Source of the DNA: Lentzea sp. NEAU-D7
Lineage (GTDB): Bacteria; Actinomycetota; Actinomycetes; Mycobacteriales; Pseudonocardiaceae
Direction: 5' to 3'
DNA length: 64,000 nucleotides
Assembly: GCF_026242055.1 (NCBI RefSeq)
Contig: NZ_JAPJDL010000004.1
Location: forward strand, 248,001 to 312,000
Shown: piece by piece, positions 5,582 through 28,928 of the stretch
Layout of the letters: each line of letters begins with the position of its first letter
Numbering within the stretch: position 1 is the stretch's first letter
Made by a program: the position numbers and the translations under genes
The notes under the pieces: model-generated
Seen by the model: only the letters and a program-made list of their open reading frames with translations
Told to the model about the DNA's origin: nothing
The model's database searches: none

Positions 5582-5669
5582 GCGGACGCGAACCGGTCGG
5601 GCGAGCGTCCGCGCCCATCCGCTACGGGGAGATCCGGGTACCGGCCGGCAGGATCGGCGGCCGGTATCC
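5582..5669 (+). promoter_or_regulatory. Structured 5' leader, two stem-loops
   Basis: Stem 1: GCGGACGC (5582-5589) pairs with GCGTCCGC (5605-5612). Stem 2: GGGTACCGGCCG (5636-5647) pairs with CGGCCGGTATCC (5658-5669), 12 bp with one G-U. Both occur at equivalent positions before the paralogue at 28954, stem 2 with compensatory changes. Stem 2 ends 27 nt before the start codon. Confidence 0.55.
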
Positions 5670-5696
5670 GCCCACGCACGATGAGGAAACGTCTGG

Positions 5697-6311
5697 ATGC
5701 GCTCACATGCCGTTCTCATCGGCTACAGCGCTCGCGGCCGCGTCGTCCTGAGTGCGCTGCTCGCCGGAGGGCATGCGACGGACTTCACCATCGTCGACTC
5801 CGATCCCGAACGCGTCGCGCAGGCCCGAGCGGATGGTGTGCGCGCCGTGGCGGGCGAAGGCTGGTGCCTGGATGTGCTGTGGTCTGCCGGTGCAGAGACC
5901 TCCGACCACATCGTCGTCGCGGTGACCGACGACGCTCTCGCTCTGCGCATCACCTCGGTCGTGCGCAGCTTCAACGAGACCGCGACGATCACTACTCTGG
6001 TCCGCAGCACGCAAATGCACGAGCTCATCGAGTACCTCGGAGCCGACCACGTCCTGGTGGCTGACCGGGTCGGCGAGTGGGCGCTCAAAGTTGAAAGCCT
6101 TCCGCGCGAACTGTTTCCCGAGCTGGAATGGGCGGTGGAGGAGCGTCCCGCGATGCCGTATGAGGTCGGCAGCTCGCCGCTTGACTGTGGTAGCGAGGTG
6201 TTGGCGATCGTGCGGGACGGTCAGCGGATGTGGACCGATGACGCGGAGATCGGGGAGCTGCGCGGTGATGACTGGCTGATCGTGTTGAGCACCATGCCGG
6301 TCATCGACTGA
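5697..6311 (+). CDS. Stand-alone RCK/TrkA-N NAD-binding protein (copy 1)
   Basis: 204 residues, cytoplasmic, no membrane segment. The N-terminal half is a Rossmann fold: strand VLIGYSARGR (nucleotide loop, the usual GxGxxG reading GYSARG), acidic strand end VDSDPER, then VAVTDDALALRITSVVRS and the YLGADHVL switch typical of TrkA-N. The C-terminal part (VLAIVRDGQRMW, later LRGDDWLIVLS) resembles a TrkA-C/RCK-C subdomain. Such domains gate K+ channels or transporters when bound to NAD(H) or other ligands; no pore gene is adjacent. Start ATG 5697 with GAGG upstream. About three quarters identical by eye to the protein at 28954. Confidence 0.75.
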   Translation: MRSHAVLIGYSARGRVVLSALLAGGHATDFTIVDSDPERVAQARADGVRAVAGEGWCLDVLWSAGAETSDHIVVAVTDDALALRITSVVRSFNETATITTLVRSTQMHELIEYLGADHVLVADRVGEWALKVESLPRELFPELEWAVEERPAMPYEVGSSPLDCGSEVLAIVRDGQRMWTDDAEIGELRGDDWLIVLSTMPVID

Positions 6312-6356
6312 CAATTTCGGGCGCAGGAGCACCGGCCGGGCTGCATCGATGTCTCC

Positions 6357-6384
6357 ATTGGACACCGTCATGATGGTGTCCAAT
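6357..6384. terminator. Hairpin terminator after RCK gene
   Basis: Perfect inverted repeat ATTGGACACC / GGTGTCCAAT with an 8-nt loop, 45 bp after the stop at 6311. No U-tract. Confidence 0.6.
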
Positions 6385-6592
6385 CGCCGCTCTAACCGGC
6401 GAGTGTGCACGTGTCGGCGTCCACTTCGGACTTCAGCAGGCCCGAGGCCTCCGGAATGACTGGGCGGGTGAACATCCTACCCGGCCGATCGGACTCCTGA
6501 TCGCCTGACCTGACCCGTACATGGTTAGTAGGGCCTCCGGAGGTGAATCCCGACAGGTCACTGTCCGAGCGACGCTGGTTCCGGGAGTCGGC

Positions 6593-7981
6593 ATGAGGCG
6601 GTTGTCCTGGTGGGGTGAACGGGTGGTGGCGCTGGCGGCGATCGCTGCCGTCGTAATGGCGTCGATCGCTGTCTCGCTGGCGATCACACCGATGCAGAAG
6701 GTGTCGGTGGCCGGGCAGACGGTGCGCGTCGGCGCGGTTGCGTCGCTGACGGCGTCGGGACCGGGGGTCCTGGAGTTGTTCGGTCAGCGGCTGAGCACCG
6801 CGGTGCAGTTCACCGGCCCGGTGCGACCTCGGCTGGAGCTCAGCCGCATCACCCTGGACAGCGAAATCGAGAACTTCGTCGCCTCGGATGATATGGAGAG
6901 TCCCACCAACGCGCTCGGACAGGCGCTGGCCGCCGGCTGGAAGCGGTACTTCCTGCTCGAAACGGTGATCGCTGGATTGTTCGCACTGTTCTTCGCCGGT
7001 GCCGTTGTCGGATGGATGAGATTGTCCCGCAGACGCACCGTCGTCGTGCTGCTGGCAAGCCTGCTGTGCGTCGAGGCGGTCAACGTGGGCGCCGTGATGG
7101 TCGGCGCGCGTTCGGCTCCGGATCGGCTTCGCGGTGTCAATTCTCTCGCCGCTTTGGTCGGGCGGGCCCAGCTGCCCGCTGTACCGGCGGCGGAAGGAAC
7201 CGATGTCGGCCCGGTGGATGCGCTGGTGTTGGGGGACTCGGTCGCGGCGGGAGCGGGTCTCCCTGCCGTTGTGCAGCCGACCGCACAGGACCGTGCATGT
7301 GGCCGCAGCGCGGACGCTTTCGCAGAGAACCTGGCTGCCGTCAACCGCTGGCGAATACTCAACCTGGCCTGCGGTGGTGCCACGATCACGGCGGGCGTCA
7401 TGGGATCCCAACAGGCGGGGGACACGGTGGTGCCGTCTCAGCTGGCTGTTGCGAAAACGAGTGAACAGGTGCGTGTGGTGATCGTCAGCATCGGTGCCAA
7501 CGATGTTGGCTGGACGTCGCTGCTCCGGTTGTGCGCGATGACGCCGAGTTGCGACAACAACGCGTCGACCGCCTACTTCCAGCAACAGCTCGCGGAGTTC
7601 AGCCTGAGCTACGAGCAGTTGCTGTTGCGGCTGAGAGAACTCCCCGCCCGTCCCCGGCTTTTGATCAACCTCTACTATGATCCGTTCGGCGGGAACCAGC
7701 ACTGCTTGGCTGAACACGGCTTCACGCCGGCCAAGCAGAGATCTCTGCTCGCGTTGCTGCACTCCCTCAACGAGGTGCTGCGCAAGGGAGCCGAAGCAGC
7801 CGGAGCGACCCCTGTCCGGCCGGACTTCACGGGTCATGGGTTGTGTGACCAGCAGCCGTACGTCCAGGGAGTGAACGCCTCGGCTCCCTTTCACCCGACG
7901 ACCGCCGGCCAGCTGGCCATGGCTCTGGCCGACCAACATGCGCTGCGGTACGAGCCGACTGTCACGTCCACAACAAGATGA
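6593..7981 (+). CDS. Membrane-anchored SGNH/GDSL hydrolase
   Basis: About 462 residues from ATG 6593 (GGGAG upstream, immediately before the first helix); an ATG at 6521 would add 24 residues. An N-terminal membrane helix (about 8-30), an extracytoplasmic segment, and two further helices (about 125-145, 153-175) precede a C-terminal SGNH hydrolase domain. Catalytic blocks are visible: GDSV (nucleophile Ser about 216), GGAT (block II Gly), GAND (block III Asn, about 303) and APFHPT (block V His about 434). Likely an extracytoplasmic lipase/esterase or acyl-modifying enzyme; substrate unknown. The gene converges on the BrkB gene. Confidence 0.85.
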   Translation: MRRLSWWGERVVALAAIAAVVMASIAVSLAITPMQKVSVAGQTVRVGAVASLTASGPGVLELFGQRLSTAVQFTGPVRPRLELSRITLDSEIENFVASDDMESPTNALGQALAAGWKRYFLLETVIAGLFALFFAGAVVGWMRLSRRRTVVVLLASLLCVEAVNVGAVMVGARSAPDRLRGVNSLAALVGRAQLPAVPAAEGTDVGPVDALVLGDSVAAGAGLPAVVQPTAQDRACGRSADAFAENLAAVNRWRILNLACGGATITAGVMGSQQAGDTVVPSQLAVAKTSEQVRVVIVSIGANDVGWTSLLRLCAMTPSCDNNASTAYFQQQLAEFSLSYEQLLLRLRELPARPRLLINLYYDPFGGNQHCLAEHGFTPAKQRSLLALLHSLNEVLRKGAEAAGATPVRPDFTGHGLCDQQPYVQGVNASAPFHPTTAGQLAMALADQHALRYEPTVTSTTR

Positions 7982-7994
7982 TCAACGCGCCTTG

Positions 7995-8007
7995 TTGCAC
8001 ATTGCAA
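7995..8007. promoter_or_regulatory. Candidate operator TTGCACATTGCAA
   Basis: Perfect palindrome (arms TTGCA/TGCAA) just after the hydrolase stop. No convincing gene starts downstream on the plus strand (a 72-codon ORF at 8039 has no family), so it may mark a lost gene start. Confidence 0.4.
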
Positions 8008-8076
8008 AGATCTGTCTCGCACATGCAGGAAGATTACGATGTGCAAGTTCATGGATTTCGTTGTCCTCAAGGCGAT

Positions 8077-8097
8077 CCGACCACCTATGGTGGTCGG
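8077..8097. terminator. Bidirectional hairpin terminator
   Basis: Perfect 9-bp inverted repeat CCGACCACC-TAT-GGTGGTCGG between the convergent hydrolase and BrkB genes. Confidence 0.65.
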
Positions 8098-8132
8098 ACG
8101 CCGTTCGGTGCCAGCATTACCATTGCCGCGGC

Positions 8133-9074
8133 CTAGGAAGAGACTCTGGTCTCGCTGTCTTGATCACACTCGGTATCCCGCTCCTTCTGGGCGTCGATCT
8201 CCGCACCGAGCAGCACCGCGAACGCCGAGAGGTACAGCCACAACAACAGCACGGTGACTCCAGCCAAGGTCCCGTAGGTCCGGTGATAGCCCGAGGAGTA
8301 GTTGAGATACAAGGCGAAACCGGCTGACCCCGCCAACCACACCACGACTGCCACCGTGCTGCCGGCCGTTACCCAGTGCCATCCCTTTGTGCTGCGGTTG
8401 GGACCGAAGCGGTACATCACGGCCAGCGCCAGCGTCACCAGCAGAACCCCTCCCGCCCACCGCACCAGGTTGACCACGTCCCTCGTGGACGAGTCGGCTC
8501 CGACCACGTCGAGGATGACCGGAACGGCTGCCACCACAGCAAGTCCGACCACTACTACGGTCAACGCTCCTAGCGCGAACAGCAGGGCCAGTCCACGTAG
8601 TCTGAAGAAGCCGCGCGTCTCCCGTACGCCGTGGGCGATGTTGAGTCCGGCGATGAGCCATCGCACGGCGTTGGACATGCTCCACAACACTGTGGCGGCA
8701 CTGACTACCAGCCCCATGGTCAACCCTGTGACGTCAATCTCCGCGGCCGCACGCAACTGTTGCATCACGAGATCGCCCGCTTCTCCTGGCACCACCCGGA
8801 GGAGGGGTGCGAGCTGATCGGGTACGTGGTGCGGGTCCGCCACGAGAGCGTAGACCGTGAGCAACGCGATCATCGTAGGCGCCAGCGCGAGCATGACGAA
8901 GAACGCCACTCCGGCCGCGACCAACGGCAGCCGGTCGGCAGACACCGCGTCCAGCACGCGTTTGACGACATTCCACCAGGCTGGCATGGGAACTCGGTCC
9001 CTCCACCGGCGAAGGTGCCGGAAACGTTCACGCACAAGAGAAAGCACTGGACCGCGTGTGGTTCGTCCGTTCAT
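8133..9074 (-). CDS. YihY/BrkB-family membrane protein
   Basis: About 313 residues from ATG 9074 (a TTG at 9101 would add nine). Six predicted membrane helices and the family pattern: DRLPLVAAGVAFFVMLALAP at the first helix, LWSMSNAVRWLIAGLNIAHGV, RGFFRLRGLALLFALG, then FGPNRSTKGWHWVTAGST and YHRTYGTLAGVTVLLLWLYLSA. Members were once called ribonuclease BN but are now regarded as membrane proteins of unclear role, perhaps transport. The C-terminus is short and acidic. Divergent from the PAP2 gene. Confidence 0.85.
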   Translation of the reverse strand: MNGRTTRGPVLSLVRERFRHLRRWRDRVPMPAWWNVVKRVLDAVSADRLPLVAAGVAFFVMLALAPTMIALLTVYALVADPHHVPDQLAPLLRVVPGEAGDLVMQQLRAAAEIDVTGLTMGLVVSAATVLWSMSNAVRWLIAGLNIAHGVRETRGFFRLRGLALLFALGALTVVVVGLAVVAAVPVILDVVGADSSTRDVVNLVRWAGGVLLVTLALAVMYRFGPNRSTKGWHWVTAGSTVAVVVWLAGSAGFALYLNYSSGYHRTYGTLAGVTVLLLWLYLSAFAVLLGAEIDAQKERDTECDQDSETRVSS

Positions 9075-9250
9075 GCAGCAGGAATTCCCCTTTGTCTGCA
9101 AGATAATCTGGACGGATCAGCCGTTGTGCGGCCCGGCCGATGCGACGAAAGTTTGAGGCCGGGCTCGGGTAGCCGCCACGTTGATGGGTAGCCCATCACG
9201 AGGCGACCCACTGACCGTCGCGGGTCATGATGAGCTGATGGGAGTCCGCC

Positions 9251-10705
9251 ATGACATTTCGACCCTCACCGGACGCGGTGTCTCGCGCTGAACGTTTCGC
9301 GCTCGGCACGGTCGTCGGCCTGGCGCTCGTCACGGCGGCTGGAGTCGGTTTCGCGCTGCTGCTAACACTAGTTCAGCTGCGGTGGAAGCCGCTTCACGAG
9401 CTGGACCTGATGATTGCGGGCGGGTTGAACGATCTTGTGGCCGGCAACGACATCGTGGTGAGAGTGCTGACTGGTGTCACCGACTTGGGCGGGACAGCGA
9501 TGCTGCTGTGGGTGGTCACGGTTGGCGCGGCCTGGCTTCTGATTCGCCGCCAGCCGCGGCTCGCCGGCTATGCGGTGGTCACCGCAGTCGGTGCACTGGT
9601 GCTCAACGGCGCGGTCAAGGCGCTTGTCGGGAGGCTTCGCCCCGTCGTCGACTTTCCAGTTGCTGCTAGCACCGGTATGAGCTTTCCCAGCGGGCATGCG
9701 ATGGGCTCGCTGGTGTCCTACGGCGTGCTCCTGCTGATCTTCCTGCCCGTCGTGCCGAAGTCCGCACGATGGGTGTTCGCCACACTTGTCGGTGTCGTGG
9801 TCGTAGCGGTGGGCTTCTCCCGGATGGCGCTGGGCGCGCACTTCCTCAGCGACGTGCTCGCTGGATGGCTGCTAGGACTGCTGTGGTTGGGGGTCACCGC
9901 GGTCGCCTTCCGGCGCTGGGGTCACCCAACCACCGCGAAGGTCACCCCGCTGTCGAGTGGGCTCGCGCCTGAAGCGGAGTCCCAACTACGGCCGGTCCCG
10001 CGACGGCACCCGCCCACTCTGCCGCATCCTTGGCGAGGAGCCGCCGAGCTCGTCACCGCCTGGGTGCTGCTGCTAGGCCTGCTCTACGGCGCCGGCCTGC
10101 TGGTCAGCGCGGATGGAACGGGGCCGGTGCCGCTCGCCTGGGACCACAACGCGGTGACGTGGCTGGCTCACCACCGTGTTGCACTTCTGGACACCTTCAA
10201 CGCCTATGCGAGCCGGATCGGCAGCACCGGCGGAGTTCTTGCCGCAGCGTTCGTCATCGGCCCCCTCGTGCTCGCGATCACTCACAGTTGGCGGCCGGTG
10301 CTCTTCCTCACCGTTGTGCTCGTCGGTGAGGTCAGCCTTTTTCTCACCACCACCGCGATCGTGAGCCGATCCAGGCCCGATGTGCCACAGCTCAATCCGA
10401 ACCTGCCGCCAACCTCAAGCTTCCCCTCCGGTCACGTCGCCGCGGCTTGCGCTCTGTACGCCGCGACGGCTCTCCTTGTGGTCTCCGCTACCCGCCGCTG
10501 GTGGAAATGGCTGGTCGTGACGGCAACCATCGCGCTTGTCGCAACCGTCGCGTTCACGCGACTGTATGCCGGTGTCCACTACCCGACCGATGTCGCCGGC
10601 GGTGCCTCGATGGCACTGATCTGGATCATGGTGTGCTGGTGGGTGATCCGCCCGCAGGGGCTGATGACCGGTGACTCCATCACGCAATCGTCCACTGAGG
10701 ACTAA
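9251..10705 (+). CDS. Tandem double PAP2-superfamily phosphatase
   Basis: 484 residues; ATG 9251 preceded by GGAG. Two consecutive PAP2 domains, each with about six membrane helices, joined by a cytoplasmic-type linker (about 230-260). Domain 1 has the full signature: KALVGRLRP, SFPSGHAMGS and SRMALGAHFLSD. Domain 2 has VSRSRP, SFPSGHVAAA and TRLYAGVHYPTD, but the motif-1 Lys is replaced by Thr. Such enzymes dephosphorylate lipid phosphates such as undecaprenyl pyrophosphate or phosphatidylglycerophosphate. The duplication is in one frame, so it is a fusion. Confidence 0.85.
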   Translation: MTFRPSPDAVSRAERFALGTVVGLALVTAAGVGFALLLTLVQLRWKPLHELDLMIAGGLNDLVAGNDIVVRVLTGVTDLGGTAMLLWVVTVGAAWLLIRRQPRLAGYAVVTAVGALVLNGAVKALVGRLRPVVDFPVAASTGMSFPSGHAMGSLVSYGVLLLIFLPVVPKSARWVFATLVGVVVVAVGFSRMALGAHFLSDVLAGWLLGLLWLGVTAVAFRRWGHPTTAKVTPLSSGLAPEAESQLRPVPRRHPPTLPHPWRGAAELVTAWVLLLGLLYGAGLLVSADGTGPVPLAWDHNAVTWLAHHRVALLDTFNAYASRIGSTGGVLAAAFVIGPLVLAITHSWRPVLFLTVVLVGEVSLFLTTTAIVSRSRPDVPQLNPNLPPTSSFPSGHVAAACALYAATALLVVSATRRWWKWLVVTATIALVATVAFTRLYAGVHYPTDVAGGASMALIWIMVCWWVIRPQGLMTGDSITQSSTED

Positions 10706-10778
10706 ATATTTTTGTCACGGTTGTCGGATCGTGCTGTTCCTATCGGCAGACTTCCCGGCGACTGGGTAATCAGTTGCC

Positions 10779-11723
10779 GTGGAGGTCTTCGAGCAACGTG
10801 GAAACATCGTCGCCGGGTTCGACGGTTCGGACCAGTCACGCGAAGCGGTGCTGTGGGCTGCAGTCGAAGCAGCACGCCGCAGCTGCCCGCTGCTCATCGT
10901 AGAGGCACAGGTCTGGCCGGAGGTCAGCGCCGGGCACTGGCCGGGCCCTGTGGCATTGCCTGGGTGGGATCCGACGTCCGCGTCTGCGTGGGGCACGATG
11001 CCGCCGTTCACTGACCAGCACGTGCGGCAGCGCATCGAGCAACATCTCGCTGAACTGACTGACCAGTGCCGGGCGGTGGCGCCGGGAATCAGCGTGTCCG
11101 TCACCGTCGTCGAGGGCACCGCCTCAGTGGCACTGCTCACCGCCGCCGACGCCACCGAAGCCGATCTCCTGGTCGTGGGAATGTCCGGGCTTGGCTCGCT
11201 GTCGCGAACACTGCTCGGTTCCACCGCTGCGGACCTCGTGCACAGCACCGATCGGCCTGTCGTCGTGGTCCGTGACGCCCCGCCACGTTTGGATGCACCG
11301 GTCGTTCTTGGTGTGGACGGCACTAACGCCAGCGTTCGCGCCGTCGGGTTCGCGTTCGACTTCGCAGCGCGGCACGGGTGTGGTGTCGTTGCAGTGCACG
11401 CCCTCTCCGGCTGGCCTTTGGACGTGATCACCTCGGCAGGTCCATCGAGTCCCGAAACCGACCGCAGCGCGGCCAGAAACGTGCTGTACGACGAATTCCT
11501 GCGACCCTGGCACGACAGCCATCCCAGCGTGCCCGTTCACATCGACGTCGTCGACGAACGGCCGGCACACACGCTGCTGGATCACTCCGAACAGGCCCGG
11601 CTGATGGTGGTCGGCAACCGCGGCCGCGGCGCAGTGCGCCGTGTTCTGTTCGGCTCGGTCAGTCACGTCGTTCTGCATCACGCAGTATGTCCGGTAGCTA
11701 TCGTGCCCGGAGTCGACAGTTAG
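10779..11723 (+). CDS. Universal stress protein, two USP domains (copy 1)
   Basis: 314 residues from GTG 10779. Two UspA domains in tandem (about 8-150 and 158-312), each ending in the ATP-binding loop G-x2-G-x9-G-S/T: GMSGLGSLSRTLLGST and GNRGRGAVRRVLFGSV. First strand NIVAGFDGSDQS is typical. Cytoplasmic, probably ATP-binding stress/dormancy protein. A paralogue lies at 22772 on the other strand. A/T-rich sequence (AAATATTTTT, about 10705) precedes it and may contain the promoter. Confidence 0.9.
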   Translation: MEVFEQRGNIVAGFDGSDQSREAVLWAAVEAARRSCPLLIVEAQVWPEVSAGHWPGPVALPGWDPTSASAWGTMPPFTDQHVRQRIEQHLAELTDQCRAVAPGISVSVTVVEGTASVALLTAADATEADLLVVGMSGLGSLSRTLLGSTAADLVHSTDRPVVVVRDAPPRLDAPVVLGVDGTNASVRAVGFAFDFAARHGCGVVAVHALSGWPLDVITSAGPSSPETDRSAARNVLYDEFLRPWHDSHPSVPVHIDVVDERPAHTLLDHSEQARLMVVGNRGRGAVRRVLFGSVSHVVLHHAVCPVAIVPGVDS

Positions 11724-11858
11724 GCCACGCCGCGGGCGTGATGTATGAACTCTCCGTCGCGATGCTCGTGGTTCCGGTGTTGGTGTATCGCTTCGGGGCA
11801 GACGCTCCTGTTGGGCAATCGCCGGATCCTGGAGATGGTGGCTCGTCAGGCAGCTGCG

Positions 11859-12278
11859 TCAGCACTGATCCACAAGGCTTTGATGATCTGCGACGAAGTG
11901 GAAGCGCTCCCGGAGACCCGCCATCTCGAACACTCGTACCAGGCCACCGCAACCGGTGATCGATATCGTGACACCGCGTGCACGGGCGTAGTCATCGGCG
12001 ATGACGAGCACGTTCAAGCCACCTGCCGACAAGAACGTTACATCGGACAGGTCAAGGACGATCAGGCGAACCTCCTCGCTGAGATGTTCGTCCAGGCGCT
12101 CGGCGAGGAGCCATGTCGTCAGCATGTCGATCTCGCCAGCTAGCTCCAAGATCGTGCAATCCGGTTGGATCCTCATGCTGTGGACGTGTAGCACTTGGCG
12201 CGCTGCGGCGGCACGATCAGGGCGGGGCGGGAGCGTCCACAGTTGCCCGGCTTTCACGAGGTCGAGAACGGATCGCAT
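11859..12278 (-). CDS. STAS-domain anti-sigma factor antagonist-like protein
   Basis: 139 residues; ATG 12278 with AGGTG upstream. An N-terminal extension of about 35 residues precedes a STAS domain (LELAGEIDMLTTWLL, VRLIVLDLSDVTFLSAGGLNVL, then VTISITGCGG). At the site where SpoIIAA-like proteins carry the phosphorylated serine (FLDSSGL), this protein reads FLSAGGL: Ala85 replaces the acceptor and Ser84 sits where Asp is usual. It may act independently of kinase phosphorylation or use the shifted Ser. A HATPase regulator lies 4 kb away (16414); pairing is possible but unproven. Confidence 0.8.
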   Translation of the reverse strand: MRSVLDLVKAGQLWTLPPRPDRAAAARQVLHVHSMRIQPDCTILELAGEIDMLTTWLLAERLDEHLSEEVRLIVLDLSDVTFLSAGGLNVLVIADDYARARGVTISITGCGGLVRVFEMAGLRERFHFVADHQSLVDQC

Positions 12279-12652
12279 GTCGTCGCACCTTCTCTCAGCT
12301 TACCGAGGATGCTTCTTCGCTGCCTTCACGCATCGCGATACTACCGATGGTGACCGCCGGCTTCCTCTTCAAAGCGCAAATGTTGTTATCTGCACGAATT
12401 GTGAGAAGGTCGTTACCCTGCAATGTCCGAAGCTTGTCGGCGAGCTGTCCATACGCCATGTGCGGCGATTGGACAAGATGATGTTCGCGGCGGTTCGCGG
12501 CCCGGCAGATTCCTGTGCTCTTCGCCCGCGAACCGCCGTGGGTTGCCGGTGGGACGGCGGCCTGGAGTTGCCGGTTCCGCCACACTCCAGGTGCGGTAGG
12601 CCAAGAGGCGCTTTGCGCCTAGCCATGTCCGTCCTCTACCAGTTCCAGTCGA
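12279..12652. other. Intergenic stretch, no gene seen
   Basis: 374 bp with only short overlapping ORFs on both strands lacking start signals. It contains the hairpin at 12606-12620. Confidence 0.5.
12606..12620. terminator. Short hairpin downstream of PRC-barrel gene
   Basis: AGGCGC-TTT-GCGCCT, 33 bp past the stop of the minus-strand gene at 12653. A small stem, so only a weak terminator candidate. Confidence 0.4.
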
Positions 12653-13021: not shown

Positions 13022-13109
13022 CTGGGCGCACCTCCTGTGGTCACGGGCTGGACCTTCATACGCTTACCCGGCTTCAGGCTCGGAGAACCGGGAACGGCGT
13101 GTGCGCTTG

Positions 13110-14971: not shown

Positions 14972-14999
14972 GAAGTGGTCGCACTTCCCCGGCCGTGAG

Positions 15000-21462: not shown

Positions 21463-21653
21463 ATGCCCGGCTCCTCCGGTCCGCCGGTGGGCAGGTTGAC
21501 GGGCGGTTCGATGCGCAGGGCCTTGACGACCGGGACGTCCGAAGAGGAGTGCAGGACGATGGACAGGGTGATGGTGACGGCCACGAGGTCGAACATCCCG
21601 GCTCGGTACGCACCGGCCGTCCTGCGTCCGATGAACTCGGCGTCGGACGTGAT
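21441..21653 (-). pseudogene. C-terminal fragment of a cation:proton antiporter-like protein
   Basis: A minus-strand frame reads SDAEFIGRRTAGAYRAGMFD, LVAVTITLSIVLHSSSDVPV and a Pro-rich tail to a TGA at 21441. The VTITLSIVLHSSSDVPV helix resembles the last segment of CPA-type antiporters. A TAG closes the frame upstream at about 21660, so only the tail survives. Family assignment tentative. Confidence 0.4.
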
Positions 21654-21693
21654 CCGCTGCCTGATCTACCTCGGGCGAGAGCTGGATGGCCGG

Positions 21694-22762
21694 TCACTTC
21701 TCGCTTGCGCTTGCGCGGGGGCGTTGGAAGAGCACGTAGAGGTAGGTCCGCGAAGGAACCAGGACCAGTGCGCCGGCACCCAGCGCGACGAGCAGGGCGG
21801 TGAGGGTGGTGCGGCCCATCGCGGCCTGCTCGACGGTGAGGGACGGCACCAGCACGTATGGGTACTGCCCGACCGCCCAGCCGATGAGGATCGCCGTAAC
21901 GGCGACTGCGGAGGCGATCCTGGCGAGGGTGTAGTGCCGGGCAAGCAGCAGGCCGGGCGCTGCGAGACCGGCGATGACCGACAGCACCACGACCGGCAAA
22001 CCGCGTCCTGTCAGGCCGGCGAACAACGTTGGCGCGTCGGTACGCAGTACCGCGATCCCTCCCAGGCCCACCGCGCCGGCCACGGCGGCGATCACCAGAG
22101 CGTGCACACGGAACTGGTCGGCCAGGTCGTCCTCCCCATCGCGCCGGGCATCGCCGCAGAGGAACACCGCGGCCAGGTAGGCGCAGACCAGCACGGCGAG
22201 TGTGCCGCCCACCAGCGAGGTGGGGTTGGCCCAGCTTGCCAGCACGTCGCCGGCGGCGATGCCGGGCGGCACCCGGCCGGAGGCCACGCCGCCGACGACG
22301 GCGCCGAGGAGGAACGGAGTCAGCAGCGAGGACAGTGCGAAGGCCGCGCCGAAGAACCGGCGCCTTCCCAGCGTGCTGACGCTCTTGCGGTAGGCGAAGG
22401 CGGCGCCGCGGGGATCATGCCGAACCCGGCCAGCGTGAGCGGGATGTAGAGCGCGTGGTGACCGCTGCGGCGAAGGCACGGGAGAAGCCGGTCCACAGCA
22501 CGACCAGCACGAAGATCAGCCACACGTGGTTGGCCTCCCAGACCGGGCCGATCGACCGCTCGATGCGGTCCCGCACCCGGTGTCCGCGTTCGGTGCCGCC
22601 CGCCAGCAGGTCCCAGACCTCGCCGCCGAAGTCGGCACCGCCGAACAGCGACGCGTACCAGGCCAGTGTCACCAGGGTCAACGCCAGGAACGCCACTTCG
22701 GCGGCGACGAACGCGATGAGTATGCGGAGGCCCGCCATGAAGCCGCTCGGTTGTTCGTGCAC
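21694..22762 (-). pseudogene. cydB: Cytochrome bd oxidase subunit II-like gene with two frameshifts
   Basis: Start GTG 22762 with GGAGG, 10 nt after the usp stop. The first part is clear CydB: FGGADFGGEVWDLLAGG, RSIGPVWEANHVWLIFV, LWTGFSRAF. Near 22455 the frame breaks; HALYIPLTLAGFGMI is in a second frame and RGAAFAYRKSVSTLGRRRFF to the C-terminus (21694) in a third. Helices and conserved loops are otherwise complete, so inactivation is recent or a sequencing error should be excluded. No CydA gene is in the window. Confidence 0.75.
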
Positions 22763-22771
22763 CCCGCCTCC

Positions 22772-23548
22772 CTAAACACTCACCGGAGCACTGGGCAACA
22801 CCGCGACGGAACACAGCGCACGGCTGAGTGCCGCGCGGCTGACTGAGCCGAACACTGCTCTGTGCACGACGCCATGACCGCGGTCTCGTACCACGAGTAG
22901 CTGAGCTTCTTCGGAGTGCGCGAGCAACGTGTCGACATCATCGTGCACAGGACGCAGTTCGCACGCGTGGCGGTCCGCATACGTGGAGGCGAACTGCAGG
23001 GCGGACATGGTTTCGGCCGTGCCATCGACTCCAACCACCACCGGACCGCTCCTGTGCGCCGGTCCGCCGTGCACCGCGACGACCGGTTGGTCCGCCTGGT
23101 TCACGAGGTCTGTGGCCGTGCAACCGATCAGCGTGCGGGGCAACACGCCCAGCCCGGACATCCCGACCACCAGCAGTTCCGCGTCCACCGTCCGGGCCGC
23201 CTCGAGAAGGGTCGGAGCGGCCCGGCCTGCCACGACCCGGGCCTCGACGTCCAAACCCGGCTCGAGCTGCCGGCACTCCTCTGCGGCGGCGCGGACCTGC
23301 TCCTCGGCCTGTCGCAGGAGGGGCGTGTCGTCGAACACCGCTGCCGCGCCCCATCCAGGCGCGGCCACAGTTCCCCAGGCACTCGTGATCGCCGTCAGCT
23401 GAGCGTGAACGAGCAGCAGCGAACGGCGCCGATGAGCGGCTTCGGCCGCTGCCCAGAGGATCGCCCCTCGGGCGCAGTCGGAGCCGTCGAAACCTGCGAC
23501 CACACCACCTCGATGACCGGACTCCGCGAACGGGTTGGCAGCAGACAT
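22772..23548 (-). CDS. Universal stress protein, two USP domains (copy 2)
   Basis: 258 residues from ATG 23548 (GAGG and AAGGA upstream). Two UspA domains with ATP loops GMSGLGVLPRTLIGCT and, degenerate, RDRGHGVVHRAVFGSV (first Gly replaced). The second domain is shortened relative to the paralogue at 10779. It precedes the cydB-like gene by 9 nt; an usp-cyd pairing would fit a low-oxygen or redox stress role (inference). Confidence 0.88.
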   Translation of the reverse strand: MSAANPFAESGHRGGVVAGFDGSDCARGAILWAAAEAAHRRRSLLLVHAQLTAITSAWGTVAAPGWGAAAVFDDTPLLRQAEEQVRAAAEECRQLEPGLDVEARVVAGRAAPTLLEAARTVDAELLVVGMSGLGVLPRTLIGCTATDLVNQADQPVVAVHGGPAHRSGPVVVGVDGTAETMSALQFASTYADRHACELRPVHDDVDTLLAHSEEAQLLVVRDRGHGVVHRAVFGSVSRAALSRALCSVAVLPSAPVSV

Positions 23549-23639
23549 GTCCTTCACCTCAAAGCCGATGGTGCACACAAAGCAACTTGACGGAGGCGGA
23601 TGGACGCCGAGCGTTGTGGCTCCGGTGTCGTCCTAAGAG

Positions 23640-24084
23640 GCTTCACCGTATGCACGTGAGTGCCTGCGTTGCACGATCTAATCCGTTGGTACGAGGAAAT
23701 GTTGCACAGAAGAAAGGTCGAGCCTCGCGCTCGATCGGTTGCGCGACGGTTGATCGGAGCGAGTAGGCCAAGCACCCTTGGACACGGCGGGTGCGACCTC
23801 CATTGTTTCGTTCCTTTCGATGGTGTGGTCGTGGTGAGGCCACCGCGACCACCGGCGCGTCTCAGCCAGAGCCGAGCAGGTCCCGGCACGCCATGGTCAT
23901 GAACGAGCCTCCTTCTCCGGGTTGCGTTTCGAACTCGGAGGCTTCCCCGCTCGTGTTGTGCCCACGGGTGCGGCGGCGCGCATCCCGATCACCAGACCGA
24001 TCACCAACGTGACGACGGTCAACGCCACGAGAGCGATGTACGCCCAGTTCGGACCGCAGTCCACAGCAGGCCGAGCAGGAACGC
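23640..24084. other. Degraded sequence upstream of usp copy 2
   Basis: Contains partial matches to the TTGCAC element (about 23662 and 23694). A minus-strand frame near 23890-24060 reads WAYIALVALTVVTLVIGLVIGM, a single membrane helix. No complete gene. Confidence 0.4.
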
Positions 24085-24165
24085 GTCAACCAGGTGGTGG
24101 TCGGGGCCGCCATCGCGCTGGTGTTGCTGGTGGTCGCCGTCGATGCGGGAAGGCGGCTGGGCTGA
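24085..24165 (+). pseudogene. 3' fragment of SPW-like gene
   Basis: Reads VNQVVVGAAIALVLLVVAVD to a stop at 24165, matching the last helix of the intact gene ending at 2446. As there, the stop lies a few bases from the 3' end of a convergent MarR gene. Confidence 0.7.
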
Positions 24166-24171
24166 CTCCGT

Positions 24172-24654
24172 TCAGATCCAGCCGAGATCAGCCGTGGTCA
24201 CCGTGGGCTCGTCGCCTGCTTCGGTGAAGGCGGTCAGCGCATCGACGAGCCCACGCCGTTCATCCTCGGGCATCCTCGCGACGATCTTCCCGATCTCCGC
24301 ACGACGCCGTCGGGTCACGCCGCGTACAACCCGCCGACCTGCGTTGGTCAGTTCGGTCACGACCTCACGGCGCGTTGCCGGGTTCGGCTGGCGTGCGATC
24401 ATCCCGGTCGTCACGAGGCGGTCGACCATGCGGGTCACGGTGGACGGGTTGACGTCCAGCAGTTCGGCCAACGAGCTGAGCTTCATCGATCCCCGGCTGT
24501 CCAGGACGACGAGCATCCGGAACTGCGGCAGGGTGAGGGTCTCCTCGAACGCCGCGAGCGAGCGCGCGGACACGGCGACCAGCAGGCGCGAGGCTGTGAG
24601 CACGGCGTCGGTGAGCGCGTCGACGTCGTTCGGGCCGACCTTGGACCGGGTCAT
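24172..24654 (-). CDS. MarR-family transcriptional regulator
   Basis: 160 residues from ATG 24654. Winged helix-turn-helix: LTLPQFRMLVVLDSRGSMKL, SSLAELLDVNPSTVTRMVDR (recognition helix), wing PATRREVVTELTNAGRRVV, then C-terminal dimerisation helix DERRGLVDALTAF. MarR proteins bind short palindromes as dimers and release them on ligand or redox signals; the TTGCACANTGCAA sites in this window are of the right size (inference). Lies 33 nt downstream of the SRPBCC gene, likely one operon. Confidence 0.88.
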   Translation of the reverse strand: MTRSKVGPNDVDALTDAVLTASRLLVAVSARSLAAFEETLTLPQFRMLVVLDSRGSMKLSSLAELLDVNPSTVTRMVDRLVTTGMIARQPNPATRREVVTELTNAGRRVVRGVTRRRRAEIGKIVARMPEDERRGLVDALTAFTEAGDEPTVTTADLGWI

Positions 24655-24686
24655 GCGACTGTTGTACCGCAACTTCGGTGCTGTGA

Positions 24687-25136
24687 TCACAGAGCTGGTT
24701 GGTGTACTGCCTGTTTTGTACGGCATTCGTCAGCTACGACGGTTTCGAGGGCGTCGAGCGCTGATTCGACCCAGGTGTCGACCGTGCTCCGTGAAGCTCC
24801 GGGCGGGCCGGTCAAGCGCACGGACACCGCGCTGCGGCCTGCGGTCAGCCGGAGAACCTGGAGGGTGCCGTTGCAGCTCGTCGTGGTTTCGCTGCCCCAC
24901 GTGATGCGCAACCGTTCCCAGTCGATGGTGACCTGTCGCTCGACGTCGACATCAGCGTGCAGGCCCGGCAACCACAGGCGGATGAGGTTGGGGCCGGACA
25001 ACTCGACCTCGACGGAGTCGGGCAGCCAGGCGGTCATGTTGTCGAGATCGGACAGGACGTCGAAAACGGCGTCCGCGTCGGCAGGCATGGATCGGCTTCG
25101 GCTCAAAACGGAGTCCCTCCGGCGGATTCCGTCCAT
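24687..25136 (-). CDS. SRPBCC-family (START-like) protein
   Basis: 149 residues, ATG 25136. Opens with a strand then PADADAVFDVLSDLDNMTAW and PDSVEVEL, the usual N-terminal helix-grip pattern of coenzyme Q-binding/polyketide cyclase-like proteins. Middle strands (ADVDVERQVTIDWERLRITW, VSVRLTGPPG) and a long C-terminal helix (WVESALDALETVV) complete the fold. Likely binds a small hydrophobic ligand; unknown. It could supply the ligand sensor for the adjacent MarR gene (speculative). Confidence 0.75.
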   Translation of the reverse strand: MDGIRRRDSVLSRSRSMPADADAVFDVLSDLDNMTAWLPDSVEVELSGPNLIRLWLPGLHADVDVERQVTIDWERLRITWGSETTTSCNGTLQVLRLTAGRSAVSVRLTGPPGASRSTVDTWVESALDALETVVADECRTKQAVHQPAL

Positions 25137-25172
25137 TCTGTCGATTTCCCGGCCGCTGCGCCTGACGAGTGC

Positions 25173-25400
25173 CTAACGATCGCCGGTCGTGCCGGGTGAT
25201 GGAGCGAGTGCCGTCGAAGCGGCAGGGGTGCTCGAGGTGGTTGAAGTGGTTGCCGGTGCCGAATGGCGCCGCTGCGTCACCACCGGCGTAGGCGCCTCGT
25301 TGTGCGTGGTCGTGGTGCCCAGGGGTTCAGGCTCATCCTGTGTGGACACTCCACAGGCAGCAGCTAGAAGGCATGCGGCGGCGACCAAGAAGATTCTCAT
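25173..25400 (-). CDS. Small Ser/Thr-rich lipoprotein
   Basis: 75 residues. MRIFLVAAACLLAAAC is a lipoprotein signal with lipobox LAAC. The mature part is a flexible Pro/Thr/Ser tail (TTTTHNEAPTPVVTQ, SAPATTSTTSSTPAAS) without a folded domain. Its ATG overlaps the histidine-kinase stop (ATGA), so it is translated as the third gene of the two-component operon and may be a membrane-tethered accessory factor. Confidence 0.75.
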   Translation of the reverse strand: MRIFLVAAACLLAAACGVSTQDEPEPLGTTTTHNEAPTPVVTQRRHSAPATTSTTSSTPAASTALAPSPGTTGDR

Positions 25401-26764
25401 ACGAGGGCCTCCGGAAGCTCCACGACGAATCGCGCTCCACCGCCAGGGCGGTCCTCGACCCACACCTTGCCGTGATGGCGGCGGACGTGTTCGGCGACGA
25501 GCGCCAGACCGAGTCCGCTGCCGGTGTCGGCACCCCGGCTGCCCGCTCTGGCGCCACGGGTGAAACGTTCGAACACCTGGCTCCTCATGTCATGAGGTAC
25601 ACCGGGTCCCGCATCATCGACCTCGAGCCGGACGCTGTCGTCCTGGTGGAGCACGGCCAGCCGGACGGCGCCTCCGGCATGCTGCTCGGCGTTTTCGATG
25701 AGGTTGCCTATGACGCGGTCGAGCCTGCGCCGGTCGCCGAGCACCAGTGGCGGTGGCGACTCGATGACGATCTCGACGTCCTGGCCCAGCCGCAAACCTG
25801 CGGCACCGCGCACGAGGCCACCGACGTCGAGCGGCTCGAAGTCAGCCTTGTCGCCGTCCTGGTCGGCTCGGCTGATCTCCATCAGGTCGACCACCATGCG
25901 GGCGAACCTGTCGACCTCGGACGTGAGCAGCCCGAGTGCCTTGCCCGCCGTGCCGGGCAACTCCGCCTGCCGGCGCCGGAGCACCGCGGCGGCGTTGACC
26001 ATCGTCGTGAGAGGTGAGCGGAGTTCGTGGCTGACGTCGCCCGCGAACCTGGCATCGCGCAGCACCCGTTGCTCCAACGCGTCGGCGGTCGTGTTGAACG
26101 TGCTGGCCAGTGGTCCGAGGTCGGGGTCGCGCTGGCTGGGTAGTCGTGCCTTCAGATCGCCGCCGGCGATGCGTGACGCAGCGGCGGTCAGTTCGGTCAA
26201 TGGTCTCAGCGCGCGTCTGCTGGCCCAGGAACCGAGTCCGACGCCGATCATGCCGCTGAGCACGGTTCCGGCGATCAGCAGGCCGCTGAGGAAGCGGAAG
26301 GTGCGGTCGAGCTGGACGAGTTGGAAGAGTTCGACGTAGACGCCCTGTCCGTCGGCCAGTGACTGGGCCACCGCGATCACCGGGATGCCGTCGGCCCTGA
26401 GGCGTTGCCTGGCGGGCGTGCCATCGCGTGCCATTGCGAGCAGCTCGGCGGGAACGACGGCGGGATCGACCTGCCGTCCGCTCGTCAGCACCTCGTTCCC
26501 GTGGAAGAGCATGATCGTCGAATCCGGGTTGGTGGTGAGACCGGTCAGCAGTTCGGTCAGCCCGTCCGAGTTGGAGCGGACGGCCGCCTCGACCAGGCGC
26601 AGGTTGACCTCCGCCTGACGGGTCGTGGCCTGCACGCGTTGCCGGAGCATGTAGTCCGACGCCAGGTTCCACGTCGCGAGGGCCAGCAGGCTGGTGACGA
26701 GCACTGAACCGAGACCGAACGCGGCCGCCACCCGCCAGCGCAGGGAGAGGCGAGGCACCATCAT
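25397..26764 (-). CDS. Sensor histidine kinase
   Basis: 455 residues from ATG 26764 or 26761; ATGA overlap with the response regulator. Two membrane helices (about 10-32 and 155-180) flank an extracytoplasmic sensor. Then HAMP (RRALRPLTELTAAASRIAGG), HisKA with FAGDVSHELRSPLTTM (His about 245), and a GHKL domain with N box VIGNLIENAEQHA, G1 VDDAGPGVP and G2 GSGLGLALVAEH. Autophosphorylates and donates to the regulator encoded just upstream. Architecture is MtrB/CseC-like. Confidence 0.92.
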   Translation of the reverse strand: MMVPRLSLRWRVAAAFGLGSVLVTSLLALATWNLASDYMLRQRVQATTRQAEVNLRLVEAAVRSNSDGLTELLTGLTTNPDSTIMLFHGNEVLTSGRQVDPAVVPAELLAMARDGTPARQRLRADGIPVIAVAQSLADGQGVYVELFQLVQLDRTFRFLSGLLIAGTVLSGMIGVGLGSWASRRALRPLTELTAAASRIAGGDLKARLPSQRDPDLGPLASTFNTTADALEQRVLRDARFAGDVSHELRSPLTTMVNAAAVLRRRQAELPGTAGKALGLLTSEVDRFARMVVDLMEISRADQDGDKADFEPLDVGGLVRGAAGLRLGQDVEIVIESPPPLVLGDRRRLDRVIGNLIENAEQHAGGAVRLAVLHQDDSVRLEVDDAGPGVPHDMRSQVFERFTRGARAGSRGADTGSGLGLALVAEHVRRHHGKVWVEDRPGGGARFVVELPEALV

Positions 26765-27444
26765 CTCGGGGGGCCGATCTTGTAACCGGAACCGCGCACC
26801 GTCAGCACGAACACCGGATCTTCCGGGTTGTGCTCGACCTTCGTGCGCAGTCTGCGGATGTGCACGTCGAGCAACCGGGTGTCGCCGTAGTAGTCGTACC
26901 CCCACACCCGCTGCAACAGCTGTTCCCTGGTGACGATGCGCCCGCCGCCCCCGGCCAGTTCGGCGAGGAGGCGGAACTCGGTGCGCGTCAGCCGGATCTC
27001 CTCACCGCCACGTTTGACGACGCCTTCGTCCGGCCAGATCTCCAGGTCCTCGATGCGGTAGCACAGGTTCTCCCTCGTGCCGCCACGTCGCCGCAACAAT
27101 GCCCGGATGCGTGCGGCCAGTTCACTCGCCACCAGGGGCTTGGTCACGTAGTCGTCCGCGCCCGCTTCCAGCCCGGCGATGACATCGGGCGTGTCAGTGC
27201 GCGCCGTCACGATGATGATCGGCAGATCGCCCTGGGCGCGCAGTCTCCTGCAGACCTGCAGGCCGTCCACCCCGGGCAGCATGAGGTCGAGCAGGACGAC
27301 GTCGAAGGAACTGTCGTCGAGCCGGCTCAACGCGTCTTCGCCCGAGACGGCCTCGTCCACGGCGAAGCCCTCGTCCGCGAGGGCCAGGCCGAGTGCCTGG
27401 CGGATGCGCTCGTCGTCGTCCACGAGCAGCACGGAGAAATCCAT
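26761..27444 (-). CDS. OmpR-family response regulator
   Basis: 227 residues from ATG 27444. Receiver domain with acidic DDDE (9-12), phosphoacceptor Asp53 in LLDLMLPGVDG, Thr in VTARTD and Lys in YVTKPL. OmpR/PhoB winged-helix domain: LTRTEFRLLAELAGGGGRIV, VWGYDYYGDTRLLDVHIRRL and VRGSGYKI. First gene of a regulator-kinase-lipoprotein operon. A TTGCACAATGCA site lies about 100 bp upstream. Confidence 0.93.
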   Translation of the reverse strand: MDFSVLLVDDDERIRQALGLALADEGFAVDEAVSGEDALSRLDDSSFDVVLLDLMLPGVDGLQVCRRLRAQGDLPIIIVTARTDTPDVIAGLEAGADDYVTKPLVASELAARIRALLRRRGGTRENLCYRIEDLEIWPDEGVVKRGGEEIRLTRTEFRLLAELAGGGGRIVTREQLLQRVWGYDYYGDTRLLDVHIRRLRTKVEHNPEDPVFVLTVRGSGYKIGPPR

Positions 27445-27522
27445 GTCCCGCTTTTCTTCGTAGGTTTCTAGTGCTGCTTCTACCACGTTGCCATGGTGAC
27501 CGCATCGCGGCTGAGATGTATG

Positions 27523-27572
27523 CCTTCGAAAGGACTTCGTAAGGTTGCACAATGCACGCGTCAGGCATGCTT
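27523..27572 (+). promoter_or_regulatory. Conserved promoter/operator block
   Basis: TTCGAAAGGACTTCGTAAGG followed by TTGCACAATGCA (27546-27557), then CATGCT 15 nt after TTGCAC. Same arrangement as the blocks before the three RCK genes. It is oriented towards the small gene at 27692 but also sits in the upstream region of the response regulator on the other strand. Confidence 0.5.
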
Positions 27573-27691
27573 GTCGCCGCGGGGGATCGCCCGTAGTGGG
27601 CGCGTGCCCGCGCGCTTCCGGGGAAGGTCAGACGTCAGCCGACGAGAGACGGCCGGCGTCTGTCTCGGGATGATGAAAGGCCCTACCAGTC

Positions 27692-27892
27692 GTGACAGGC
27701 ATGCCCACCACTGACGAAGGCATGACAGGGACAATCCTGGTGTGCGACGGATGCGGCCGGTCGCGCCGCACCAGTGCCACAGGTCTGTTCGCGTGGGACT
27801 TGCTGTGGCTGCAGGCTGATCAGGCAGGGTGGACGGGCTCGGACAGGCCGCTGGGACCTCACTACTGCACGATCTGCGTTGATAACGAGTAG
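27692..27892 (+). CDS. Small zinc-ribbon-like protein
   Basis: 66 residues (start GTG 27692, or ATG 27701/27722). CDGCGRS near the N-terminus and HYCTIC near the C-terminus form two Cys-x2-Cys knuckles expected to bind Zn, separated by a Trp-rich segment (FAWDLLWLQADQAGW). No known family. Preceded by the same conserved promoter block as the RCK genes, suggesting shared regulation. Confidence 0.6.
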   Translation: MTGMPTTDEGMTGTILVCDGCGRSRRTSATGLFAWDLLWLQADQAGWTGSDRPLGPHYCTICVDNE

Positions 27893-27899
27893 ATAACGT

Positions 27900-27912
27900 T
27901 TGCACAATGCAA
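27900..27912. promoter_or_regulatory. Candidate operator TTGCACAATGCAA
   Basis: Perfect palindrome 79 bp upstream of the DUF4142 start, immediately after the zinc-ribbon stop. TAATCT adjoins it. Confidence 0.45.
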
Positions 27913-27990
27913 TAATCTTGCCGGTCCGATTCGTCCGTATCCCTCCGTGTCGGTACACACGATCGCCGCTCTACGCGGAGGGAGATCCAC

Positions 27991-28785
27991 GTGCTCACAC
28001 GTCTCGCCCAGGTGGTGACGGTGCTCGCGATCCTTTGTTCGCTCGCGGCTCCGCAGGCGTCCGCCCAACCCGAATTCGGGCCGGAGTACACGCAGACCCA
28101 GTTCGGCCCGATGGGACCTGCGGGCAGGGACATGCTGGTCAAGGTTCGACTGGCTGGATTGTGGGAGGGGCCCGCCGGTCGGCTGGGACTGGAGAAGTCC
28201 GCCAATCCTCTCGTGAAGGAGGCGGGCCGTCATCTGATCAACGGCCACGCCGAACTGGACGCCAAGGTTCTCGAGCTCGGGCGCACGCTGAACGTCCCGC
28301 TGCCCAGCGAGTCCAACGCGGACCAGAAGGGCTGGATCGCGGAGATGACCAACGCCCCGGCCGGCAGCGCCGAGTTCGACCGGGTCTTCGCCAACCGCCT
28401 CCGCGCGGCGCACGGTGGTGTCTACAAGTTCCTCGCGGTCGTTCGCACCGGCACCCGCAACACGTTGATCCGGGACTTCGCCAAGCGCTGCATGGAAGTC
28501 GTGCTCGACCACATCCAAGTTCTCGAAGCGACCGGCATGGTCGATTTCACCGACACGGAAGCCATTCCGCTCGCCGCGCTCGCCGCCGCACCGGTCAGCC
28601 CCGCGCCCGTTCCCACCGTTCCCCAGGCGGTGCCCACCGTGCCCAGGACGCAGAACATCGCTCAGGAGAACGGAAGTGACGGCTCCGACGCGATCCTCGG
28701 TGTCGTCGTGATGGTGGCCGTCGTAGGCGGGATCTACCTGTGGACAGGTGGACGTCCGCGCCGCTCGCGCTCGTCGCGACAATGA
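27991..28785 (+). CDS. DUF4142 exported protein with C-terminal anchor
   Basis: 264 residues, GTG 27991 after GGAGGGAG. Signal peptide (VVTVLAILCSLAAPQASA), then a DUF4142 ferritin-like helical bundle (about 40-185: DMLVKVRLAGLWEGPAG, KEAGRHLINGHAELDAKV, FANRLRAAHGGVYKFLAVVR, FAKRCMEVVLDHIQVLEATG). A Pro/Val-rich linker leads to a C-terminal membrane helix (ILGVVVMVAVVGGIYLW) and a basic end. It therefore sits outside the membrane, anchored at its C-terminus. The His/Glu residues of the bundle could bind metal but this is unproven. A decayed copy lies at 4896. Confidence 0.85.
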   Translation: MLTRLAQVVTVLAILCSLAAPQASAQPEFGPEYTQTQFGPMGPAGRDMLVKVRLAGLWEGPAGRLGLEKSANPLVKEAGRHLINGHAELDAKVLELGRTLNVPLPSESNADQKGWIAEMTNAPAGSAEFDRVFANRLRAAHGGVYKFLAVVRTGTRNTLIRDFAKRCMEVVLDHIQVLEATGMVDFTDTEAIPLAALAAAPVSPAPVPTVPQAVPTVPRTQNIAQENGSDGSDAILGVVVMVAVVGGIYLWTGGRPRRSRSSRQ

Positions 28786-28786
28786 C

Positions 28787-28838
28787 ATCAGATCGCAAGT
28801 GCCTCGCAAGGTTGCACAGTGCGGGACTCCATCAGAAT
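28787..28838 (+). promoter_or_regulatory. Conserved promoter/operator block upstream of second RCK gene
   Basis: GATCGCAAGTGCCTCGCAAGG, TTGCACAGTGCG (28812-28823), then CAGAAT (28833-28838) at 15-nt spacing, 6 nt before the first stem. Confidence 0.5.
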
Positions 28839-28844
28839 GGCGGG

Positions 28845-28928
28845 GCGGACGCCACCGATCGGGGCGGGCGTCCGCGCCAGGCCACCACGGGAGATCCGGG
28901 TGCCGACCGGCAGGATCGGTCGGCACCC
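28845..28928 (+). promoter_or_regulatory. Structured 5' leader with covarying stem
   Basis: Stem 1 GCGGACGC (28845-28852) / GCGTCCGC (28868-28875). Stem 2 GGGTGCCGACCG (28898-28909) / CGGTCGGCACCC (28917-28928), loop GCAGGAT. Against the copy at 5636, two base pairs of stem 2 change in compensating fashion and one G-U becomes G-C. Confidence 0.6.

Follow-up and report, generated by a model that had tools for sequence, protein, structure and literature searches.

Hairpin-bearing 5' leaders of a candidate two-component regulon in Lentzea and a second genus

In the genome of Lentzea sp. NEAU-D7, three genes for TrkA-N (RCK-type) proteins are each preceded by a promoter-like block and a short stem-loop. 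Do these hairpins belong to an RNA under selection, and, if so, what could such an RNA do for the genes behind it? The question was examined in a 64,000-nt stretch of the 9.3-Mb genome (genome G000, contig C34, positions 248001 to 312000; this whole stretch is called the window, and coordinates refer to it unless another locus is named) and in related genomes. The hairpins before the three RCK genes are confirmed to be real, and relatives of them stand before a gene for a 66-amino-acid (66-aa) zinc-ribbon-like protein, here called the S gene. The preferred interpretation, to which a probability of roughly 0.42 is assigned, is that both kinds of element are transcribed 5' leaders of one two-component regulon, in which constitutive hairpins tune output, most likely by partial premature 3'-end formation.

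The three window units, A, B, and C, lie on the forward strand and have the same order: promoter-like block, stem 1, linker, stem 2 (in A and B only), and then the TrkA-N gene. In unit A, the tandem repeat TCGAAAGG-N3-TCGCAAGG, which has an 11-nt period and is a putative response-regulator site (5529-5547), runs into a putative promoter made of TTGCAT, 15 nt, and CAGACT (5548-5574), followed by stem 1 (5582-5612, arms 5582-5589 and 5605-5612), stem 2 (5635-5670), and a gene of 204 codons (5697-6311; Pfam PF02254, expectation value [E] of 3.1e-20). Unit B comprises the repeat (28793-28811), a putative promoter of TTGCAC, 15 nt, and CAGAAT (28812-28838), stem 1 (28845-28875, arms 28845-28852 and 28868-28875), stem 2 (28897-28929), and a gene that also encodes 204 aa (28954-29568). 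In unit C, the repeat (30598-30616) and a putative promoter of TTGCAC, 15 nt, and CACAAT (30617-30643) precede stem 1 (30650-30681, arms 30650-30657 and 30674-30681); stem 2 is missing, and the gene follows at 30715-31347, with GTG at 30727 as a possible start, judging from relatives. Genes B and C were likewise assigned by Pfam. In A and B, stem 1 was located by folding and pattern search and stem 2 by folding and a hairpin scan. The units are paralogous, proteins A and C being 78% and 56% identical to protein B.

An earlier reading of the letters of this DNA, made without database searches (the sequence-only reading), had proposed a covarying stem-loop leader at these sites. The GCGGACGC/GCGTCCGC stem it described is exact in all three units and begins 7, 6, and 6 nt past CAGACT (5569-5574), CAGAAT (28833-28838), and CACAAT (30638-30643), respectively, and the second stem that it saw before two of the genes is present in A and B, with 12 to 14 bp. 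The differences it listed between these two copies (A-T to G-C, G-C to A-T, and G-U to G-C) are as claimed, but A and B are paralogues and provide a single recent comparison. Its further claim, that GCAGGAT in the loop is kept, fails in a larger sample, where only 5 of 15 aligned leaders with a second stem retain this motif. The pattern GGCGGACGC..GCGTCCGC occurs three times in the window and in none of 100 shuffles, and the looser GCGGACGC..GCGTCCGC has six sites genome-wide, namely, four leaders and two unrelated sites, compared with one for a reversed control pattern. Because hairpins are common in this GC-rich DNA, a lone one means little: 71 hairpins in the window score 27 or higher, of which four are leader hairpins (scores of 27 to 38) and many others are intragenic. 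Folding energies are only moderately unusual relative to shuffled sequences (z of -2.1, -3.0, and -1.0 for A, B, and C; extending the pieces gives -1.05 [A], -2.8 [B], and -1.3 [S leader]). The evidence is position, repetition, and compensation rather than the hairpin as such.

The label "RCK-gene leader" turned out to be too narrow, as the same block and a hairpin stand before the S gene (27692-27892, forward strand). The S leader spans 27526-27691 and adjoins a pair of OmpR-type regulator and kinase genes; it begins with the tandem repeat and TTGCAC-15-CATGCT (27526-27571), at the spacing seen in A, B, and C, and contains a hairpin (27626-27665) that is homologous across two genera. Homologues of the S protein, which has two CxxC motifs, were sought in 390 genomes of the family; 65 were found in 43 genomes, and the 200 nt upstream of all 65 were inspected. 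The tandem repeat is present upstream of 45. A strong hairpin (z >2 against 30 shuffles) was found in 30 of these 45, versus 3 of the 20 homologues that lack the repeat, and the association is also seen within genus g8 alone (20 of 32 versus 0 of 7), which we take to be Saccharothrix/Actinosynnema-like. In the other 15 repeat-positive leaders, the hairpin is weak or absent (z <=2), with gene and repeat retained.

Selection on pairing was assessed by tree-aware tests in which the same substitutions were re-placed at random in 1000 runs. All 45 repeat-positive S leaders were included, those without a hairpin among them; a subset of 30 sequences chosen for their hairpin is biased and was not relied on. 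Paired cells number 492 of 616 (79.9%), compared with 31 to 48% when the partner is slid, and no null run reached this count (maximum, 479). In 50 cells both partners have changed (at most 40 in 500 within-genus shuffles), and same-branch double changes number 14, versus a null mean of 4.5 and a maximum of 13 (0 of 1000 runs). The 13 Lentzea S leaders by themselves give 6 double changes (null maximum, 5), and the 32 from outside Lentzea give 9 (5 of 1000 null runs as high); in the Lentzea copies, 94.0% of the cells of a 13-bp helix are paired, and five pairs show double changes. Pair-keeping changes do not make up a larger share than in the null (0.39 versus 0.36; 254 of 1000 runs as high), perhaps owing to outright loss of the hairpin in some lineages. 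In the RCK leaders, 302 of 315 cells are paired (1 of 1000 null runs as high), and only two same-branch double changes were counted (40 of 1000 as high). Weighed together with a negative per-pair covariation test (below), the selected RNA structure that the sequence-only reading argued for has fair to good support mainly by way of the S leaders; for the RCK leaders, which share their layout, the evidence taken alone is suggestive.

Leaders of the RCK type recur in other genomes, whereas an absence of homologous leaders elsewhere is what the sequence-only reading had said would refute it. A DNA search of 24 Lentzea genomes found 16 strong ones (E <1e-25) in 8 genomes; relatives of the RCK protein among the named genomes number four, all Lentzea. 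Alignment A2 holds 15 of the 16, copy C being excluded as it is without stem 2. In these 15 two-stem leaders, 96.2% of 345 cells are paired, and four pairs have both members altered, two of them in stem 2 and two in stem 1 (G006 in each case); the arm sequence of stem 1 is nearly invariant, and the loop of stem 1 and the CGGGGAGA linker show fair conservation, all within Lentzea. Run on the 390 family genomes, a covariance model built from the 15 (R1) recovered all 16; copy C alone is an independent recovery, the others following by construction. R1 also matches the S leader of G010 (E of 1.5e-5). Weaker matches (E of about 0.02) fall on three g8 leaders, each at a repeat site, and are 3 of its 17 matches outside Lentzea. 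Its E-values were not trusted alone, given a chance match in a coding gene of G291 (E of 1.4e-4); 9 of the loci behind the 17 non-Lentzea matches were inspected, and the three in g8 were counted because they fall on repeat sites.

The genes adjoining the S leader, both on the reverse strand and divergent from the S gene, encode an OmpR-family response regulator of 227 aa (26761-27444; Response_reg and Trans_reg_C), likely the regulator of the units, and a sensor histidine kinase of 455 aa (25397-26764; HAMP, HisKA, and HATPase_c); the start codons of both were chosen by us. Both leader kinds are preceded by the 11-nt-period tandem TCGNAAGG abutting TTGCAC, the block as a whole reading TCGNAAGG-N3-TCGYAAGG-TTGCAC. 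The repeat stands before all four RCK-type and both S leaders of the genome, one of them with a mismatch, and a reversed control had no site genome-wide. Of 29 repeat-positive loci tested with flanks exceeding 1 kb, 28 have a relative of the regulator, of the kinase, or of both beside the S gene (23 of 23 among L139-L168, plus L063, L071, L104, L105, and L106; the exception is L072). Among repeat-negative loci in L139-L168, 5 of 7 also have a kinase or regulator match, four of them at 50 to 62% identity. In G383, the repeat occurs before a DUF4142 gene whose neighbours are related to this regulator and kinase. The g8 form of the repeat, the only form sought there, was found in 4 of 377 sampled genomes of the order, all of genus g8.

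In regulons of the OmpR/PhoB family, tandem direct repeats lie at the -35 region. The loci described here resemble them in that a regulator is encoded beside its likely targets and direct repeats with an 11-nt period abut a -35-like box. They thus carry the signature of an OmpR-type regulon, a tandem repeat of about 11 nt upstream of or at the -35 region with a regulator or kinase gene close by; they differ in that the targets share structured leaders, and binding is a prediction. The promoters of the units are likewise predicted, from their TTGCAC-15-CANNNT boxes. What is observed is that repeat, boxes, and hairpins recur together, that the arms change while pairing is kept, and that the kinase and regulator genes are adjacent in two genera.

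In the mechanism that we propose, the OmpR-type regulator would bind the tandem repeat abutting each -35-like box and activate the TTGCAC-15-CANNNT promoter. The message would begin a few nt from the first hairpin at most and carry a second, GC-rich hairpin of 12 to 14 bp upstream of the ribosome-binding site. The hairpins would act constitutively, with no ligand, and set the productive share of the regulator-driven transcript; the likeliest route would be that the second hairpin, which lacks a U-tract, works as a leaky attenuator: some transcripts would end there prematurely, leaving a leader RNA of about 100 nt, and the remainder would read through. In 19 g8 leaders, the centre of the hairpin keeps a fixed distance from the repeat (79.6 nt, standard deviation of 1.5), compared with 53.1 nt (standard deviation of 5.9) to the start codon, and this fixed distance favours a role linked to transcription; all spacing figures exclude G086a, whose best hairpin is a different one. 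A hairpin that can be dispensed with, as in the 15 S leaders above and in copy C with respect to stem 2, is expected of tuning and not of an obligate switch. In A and B the second stem, like the hairpin of the S leader, is very stable and GC-rich, with no U-tract or T-run. A study of Streptomyces clavuligerus reports U-less strong hairpins at 353 of 1,427 transcript ends and 117 premature ends within 5' untranslated regions (PMC8269248). The Lentzea hairpins, which sit between a predicted start site and a start codon, share with these HS-U-lack or "I-shaped" ends great stability, a high GC content, the missing U-tract, and an actinomycete host. The HS-U-lack ends are mapped 3' ends, whereas the hairpins described here are predicted from sequence and recur in one putative regulon beside a regulator repeat.

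A number of results weigh against this interpretation. Among the Lentzea S leaders, the 10 whose hairpin is strong hold it at a fixed distance from the start codon instead (46.4 nt, standard deviation of 2.1), the distance to the repeat having a standard deviation of 5.7. No leader in the window has a U-tract or a canonical terminator, and no antiterminator appears in minimum-energy or centroid folds. The 15-nt spacer of the putative promoters is unusual; a sigma-70 consensus scan found no site in 5400-5800 and, in 27400-30800, only a different one (27879-27908, overlapping a direct repeat at 27881-27917), so that the proposed promoters were not found. L072 (G010) is repeat-positive with no relative of the regulator or kinase within 9 kb, and its S leader lacks a strong hairpin (z of 0.1). 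Stem 1 contains A-C mismatches in two RCK leaders (two in G005_c and one in G003_b). A covariation test of the kind that the sequence-only reading had called for, an R-scape-like per-pair G-test, gave no significant pair (best E of 0.145 for S and 0.40 for RCK leaders). Under the null of that test, same-branch compensations were within range for both S leaders (10; mean, 4.85; maximum, 12) and RCK leaders (2; mean, 0.94; maximum, 5); the S count of 10, rather than 14 as above, comes from a trimmed alignment with its own tree, ancestral ties being broken randomly. Finally, two leaders without a gene behind them, in G005 and G021, are about 3% diverged and differ at 6 of 149 sites in the unit, which is not below their surroundings, a comparison that has no power to detect selection.

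The hairpins might instead protect the message, the 5' stem blocking 5'-end-dependent decay and the second shielding or insulating the ribosome-binding site, with no premature ends. Such a role is possible, if somewhat doubtful, and attenuation is placed slightly ahead of it. RCK stem 1 begins 6 to 7 nt past the -10-like box, that is, at the predicted +1, and the second hairpin of the 10 Lentzea S leaders keeps its distance from the start codon, as protection would have it; yet the transcription starts are themselves predictions, and in g8 it is the promoter, rather than the start codon, to which the hairpin is fixed. In other systems, protective 5' stem-loops are well established (reviewed in PMC7509114), and the ompA-type stabilisers described there are similar in having a stem at the 5' end of the message, here a predicted end, but in the present leaders it is the second stem that is conserved across genera. 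It is rather unlikely that no structure has been selected and that chance GC-rich hairpins were copied along with paralogous genes. This would agree with the abundance of high-scoring hairpins in the window, with the lack of any individually significant covarying pair, and with the restriction of the 16 RCK leaders, several of them paralogues within one genome, to a single genus; however, the S leaders exceed the tree-aware null in both pairing and double changes, and hairpin and repeat are tied to each other even within g8. The inverted repeats just past the -10 box could also be DNA operators that bind a repressor, as the nearly invariant stem-1 arms of the RCK leaders would allow. G006, however, changes two pairs on both arms; GCGGACGC is in none of 11 Lentzea S leaders searched (about 230 nt each), and CGGACGC is in one (G000 C4) and in neither of the other two Lentzea S leaders; and beyond the four leaders, the genome has only the two unrelated copies of the stem. 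An operator is very improbable because the stem sequences of the S leaders drift while their pairing is kept.

A new riboswitch, or another leader sensing a ligand for potassium or osmotic stress, would suit the RCK and antiporter genes downstream and the fair conservation of the stem-1 loop and CGGGGAGA linker in the RCK leaders of one genus. No Rfam family matched at its gathering score in the window or in five relative loci, in line with the sequence-only reading, which recognised no riboswitch class; leader B and the S leader, when scanned leniently, gave only sub-threshold matches, far below what is needed (best, sRNA P17; E of 0.03 and 16.3 of the 45 bits required). The c-di-AMP (ydaO) riboswitch, RF00379, would be expected before K+-transport genes and has no covariance-model match in the window, in the five loci, or in the lenient scans; with no Rfam match, it and other known RNA families were ruled out. 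Moreover, two-thirds of the aligned leaders lack GCAGGAT, leaders can lose the hairpin, and the S leaders of the two genera have the stem in common, with no shared unpaired core visible by eye. As no known family matches and no unpaired core is seen to be conserved across genera, ligand sensing is unlikely, its probability being very low. Both Lentzea leader kinds contain, in series, a GGGG run, a 5-nt bulge, and a long stem, and the run can pair just past the stem. A more far-reaching possibility, quite improbable, is that the leaders of Lentzea and g8 form a family that serves a single two-component regulon, with a hairpin unit at every regulator-driven promoter from which a leader RNA of about 100 nt would be released. 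Such an RNA might act in trans on the other messages of the regulon, whose CGGGGA-bulge-stem layout is shared in Lentzea, and would be the sole product of the unit in genomes with no downstream gene.

No description of leader or regulon was found in Rfam or among the literature titles and abstract openings listed, several of these lists being excerpts (for example, 10 of 1,090 and 8 of 116 matches). What is new is this leader and its regulon as an instance of structured 5' leaders and of OmpR regulons; the class of mechanism is not. The hairpins thereby become part of something that can be tested: a regulator gene, the repeat to which its product probably binds, and 61 homologous promoter-leader units from two genera (16 of the RCK type and 45 of the S type, 30 of the latter with a strong hairpin). 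The repeat defines a candidate regulon of a two-component system to which RCK proteins of the K+ type, DUF4142 proteins, and the 66-aa zinc-ribbon-like family are tied, and if the hairpins set output after the start of transcription, the regulon would gain a second, evolvable level of control.

Further copies of the RCK unit differ in what follows the leader. Three leaders (G005_b, G021, and G010) persist without a downstream sense gene. In these genomes, the RCK-type leader has the 66-aa gene on one side and a convergent gene on the other (L063, L068, and L066), the latter verified by translation for G005_b and by eye for G021 and G010; in G010, the -35 box is lost too. A DUF4142 gene (27991-28785, forward strand; PF13628) lies between the S unit and unit B, and the fourth copy of the RCK-type leader in the Lentzea sp. 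NEAU-D7 genome (G000:C4, L001/L071) lies after another DUF4142 gene. A terminator of the upstream DUF4142 gene is disfavoured as an account of the hairpins, copy C having no preceding DUF4142 gene, although the three gene-less units do sit between two genes that converge, one of them the S gene. In the fourth copy (L001, 1650-3017), all that is left of the RCK gene is a relic of its start, which is followed by a gene recognised by eye as cation/proton antiporter-like. A fifth copy is decayed (L070, 4980-5165; G000:C34:186475): the promoter block is retained, stem 1 is destroyed, and an RCK-like reading frame survives, judged by eye, in its C-terminal part only. Before gene A, a DUF4142 gene (4896-5521) looks degraded by eye in comparison with 27991-28785 and with the copy in L001, its N-terminal part being unrecognisable and its frame lost near the C terminus; Pfam gives no match for the open reading frame at 4424-5521.

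Members of the S family share the motif VTAIP...LICDxCGR...GPHxCxxC, with up to three copies per genome in g8; the window member has no Pfam or NCBIfam match. Where flanks were tested, most of the genes have relatives of this two-component system as neighbours. At two loci of genus g11 (L161 and L163), a variant repeat with an 11-nt period, TCGTCAGG or CCGTCAGG, replaces TCGCAAGG before the S homologues, which suggests turnover of the regulator site. A block at 2042-2120, TTCGATTGCGCCCCGCAATGATTGC..GTGAAGAACA, recurs in L060 and L061 and partly in L065, in a loose promoter scan that returned mostly noise; it may be a further promoter or coding start belonging to this gene neighbourhood. Lastly, a direct repeat before the DUF4142 gene, GATAACG-N4-GATAACG (27881-27917), extends over the stop codon of the 66-aa gene, with TTTGCACAATGCAATAAT coming after it; as it is partly coding, it may be a chance occurrence.

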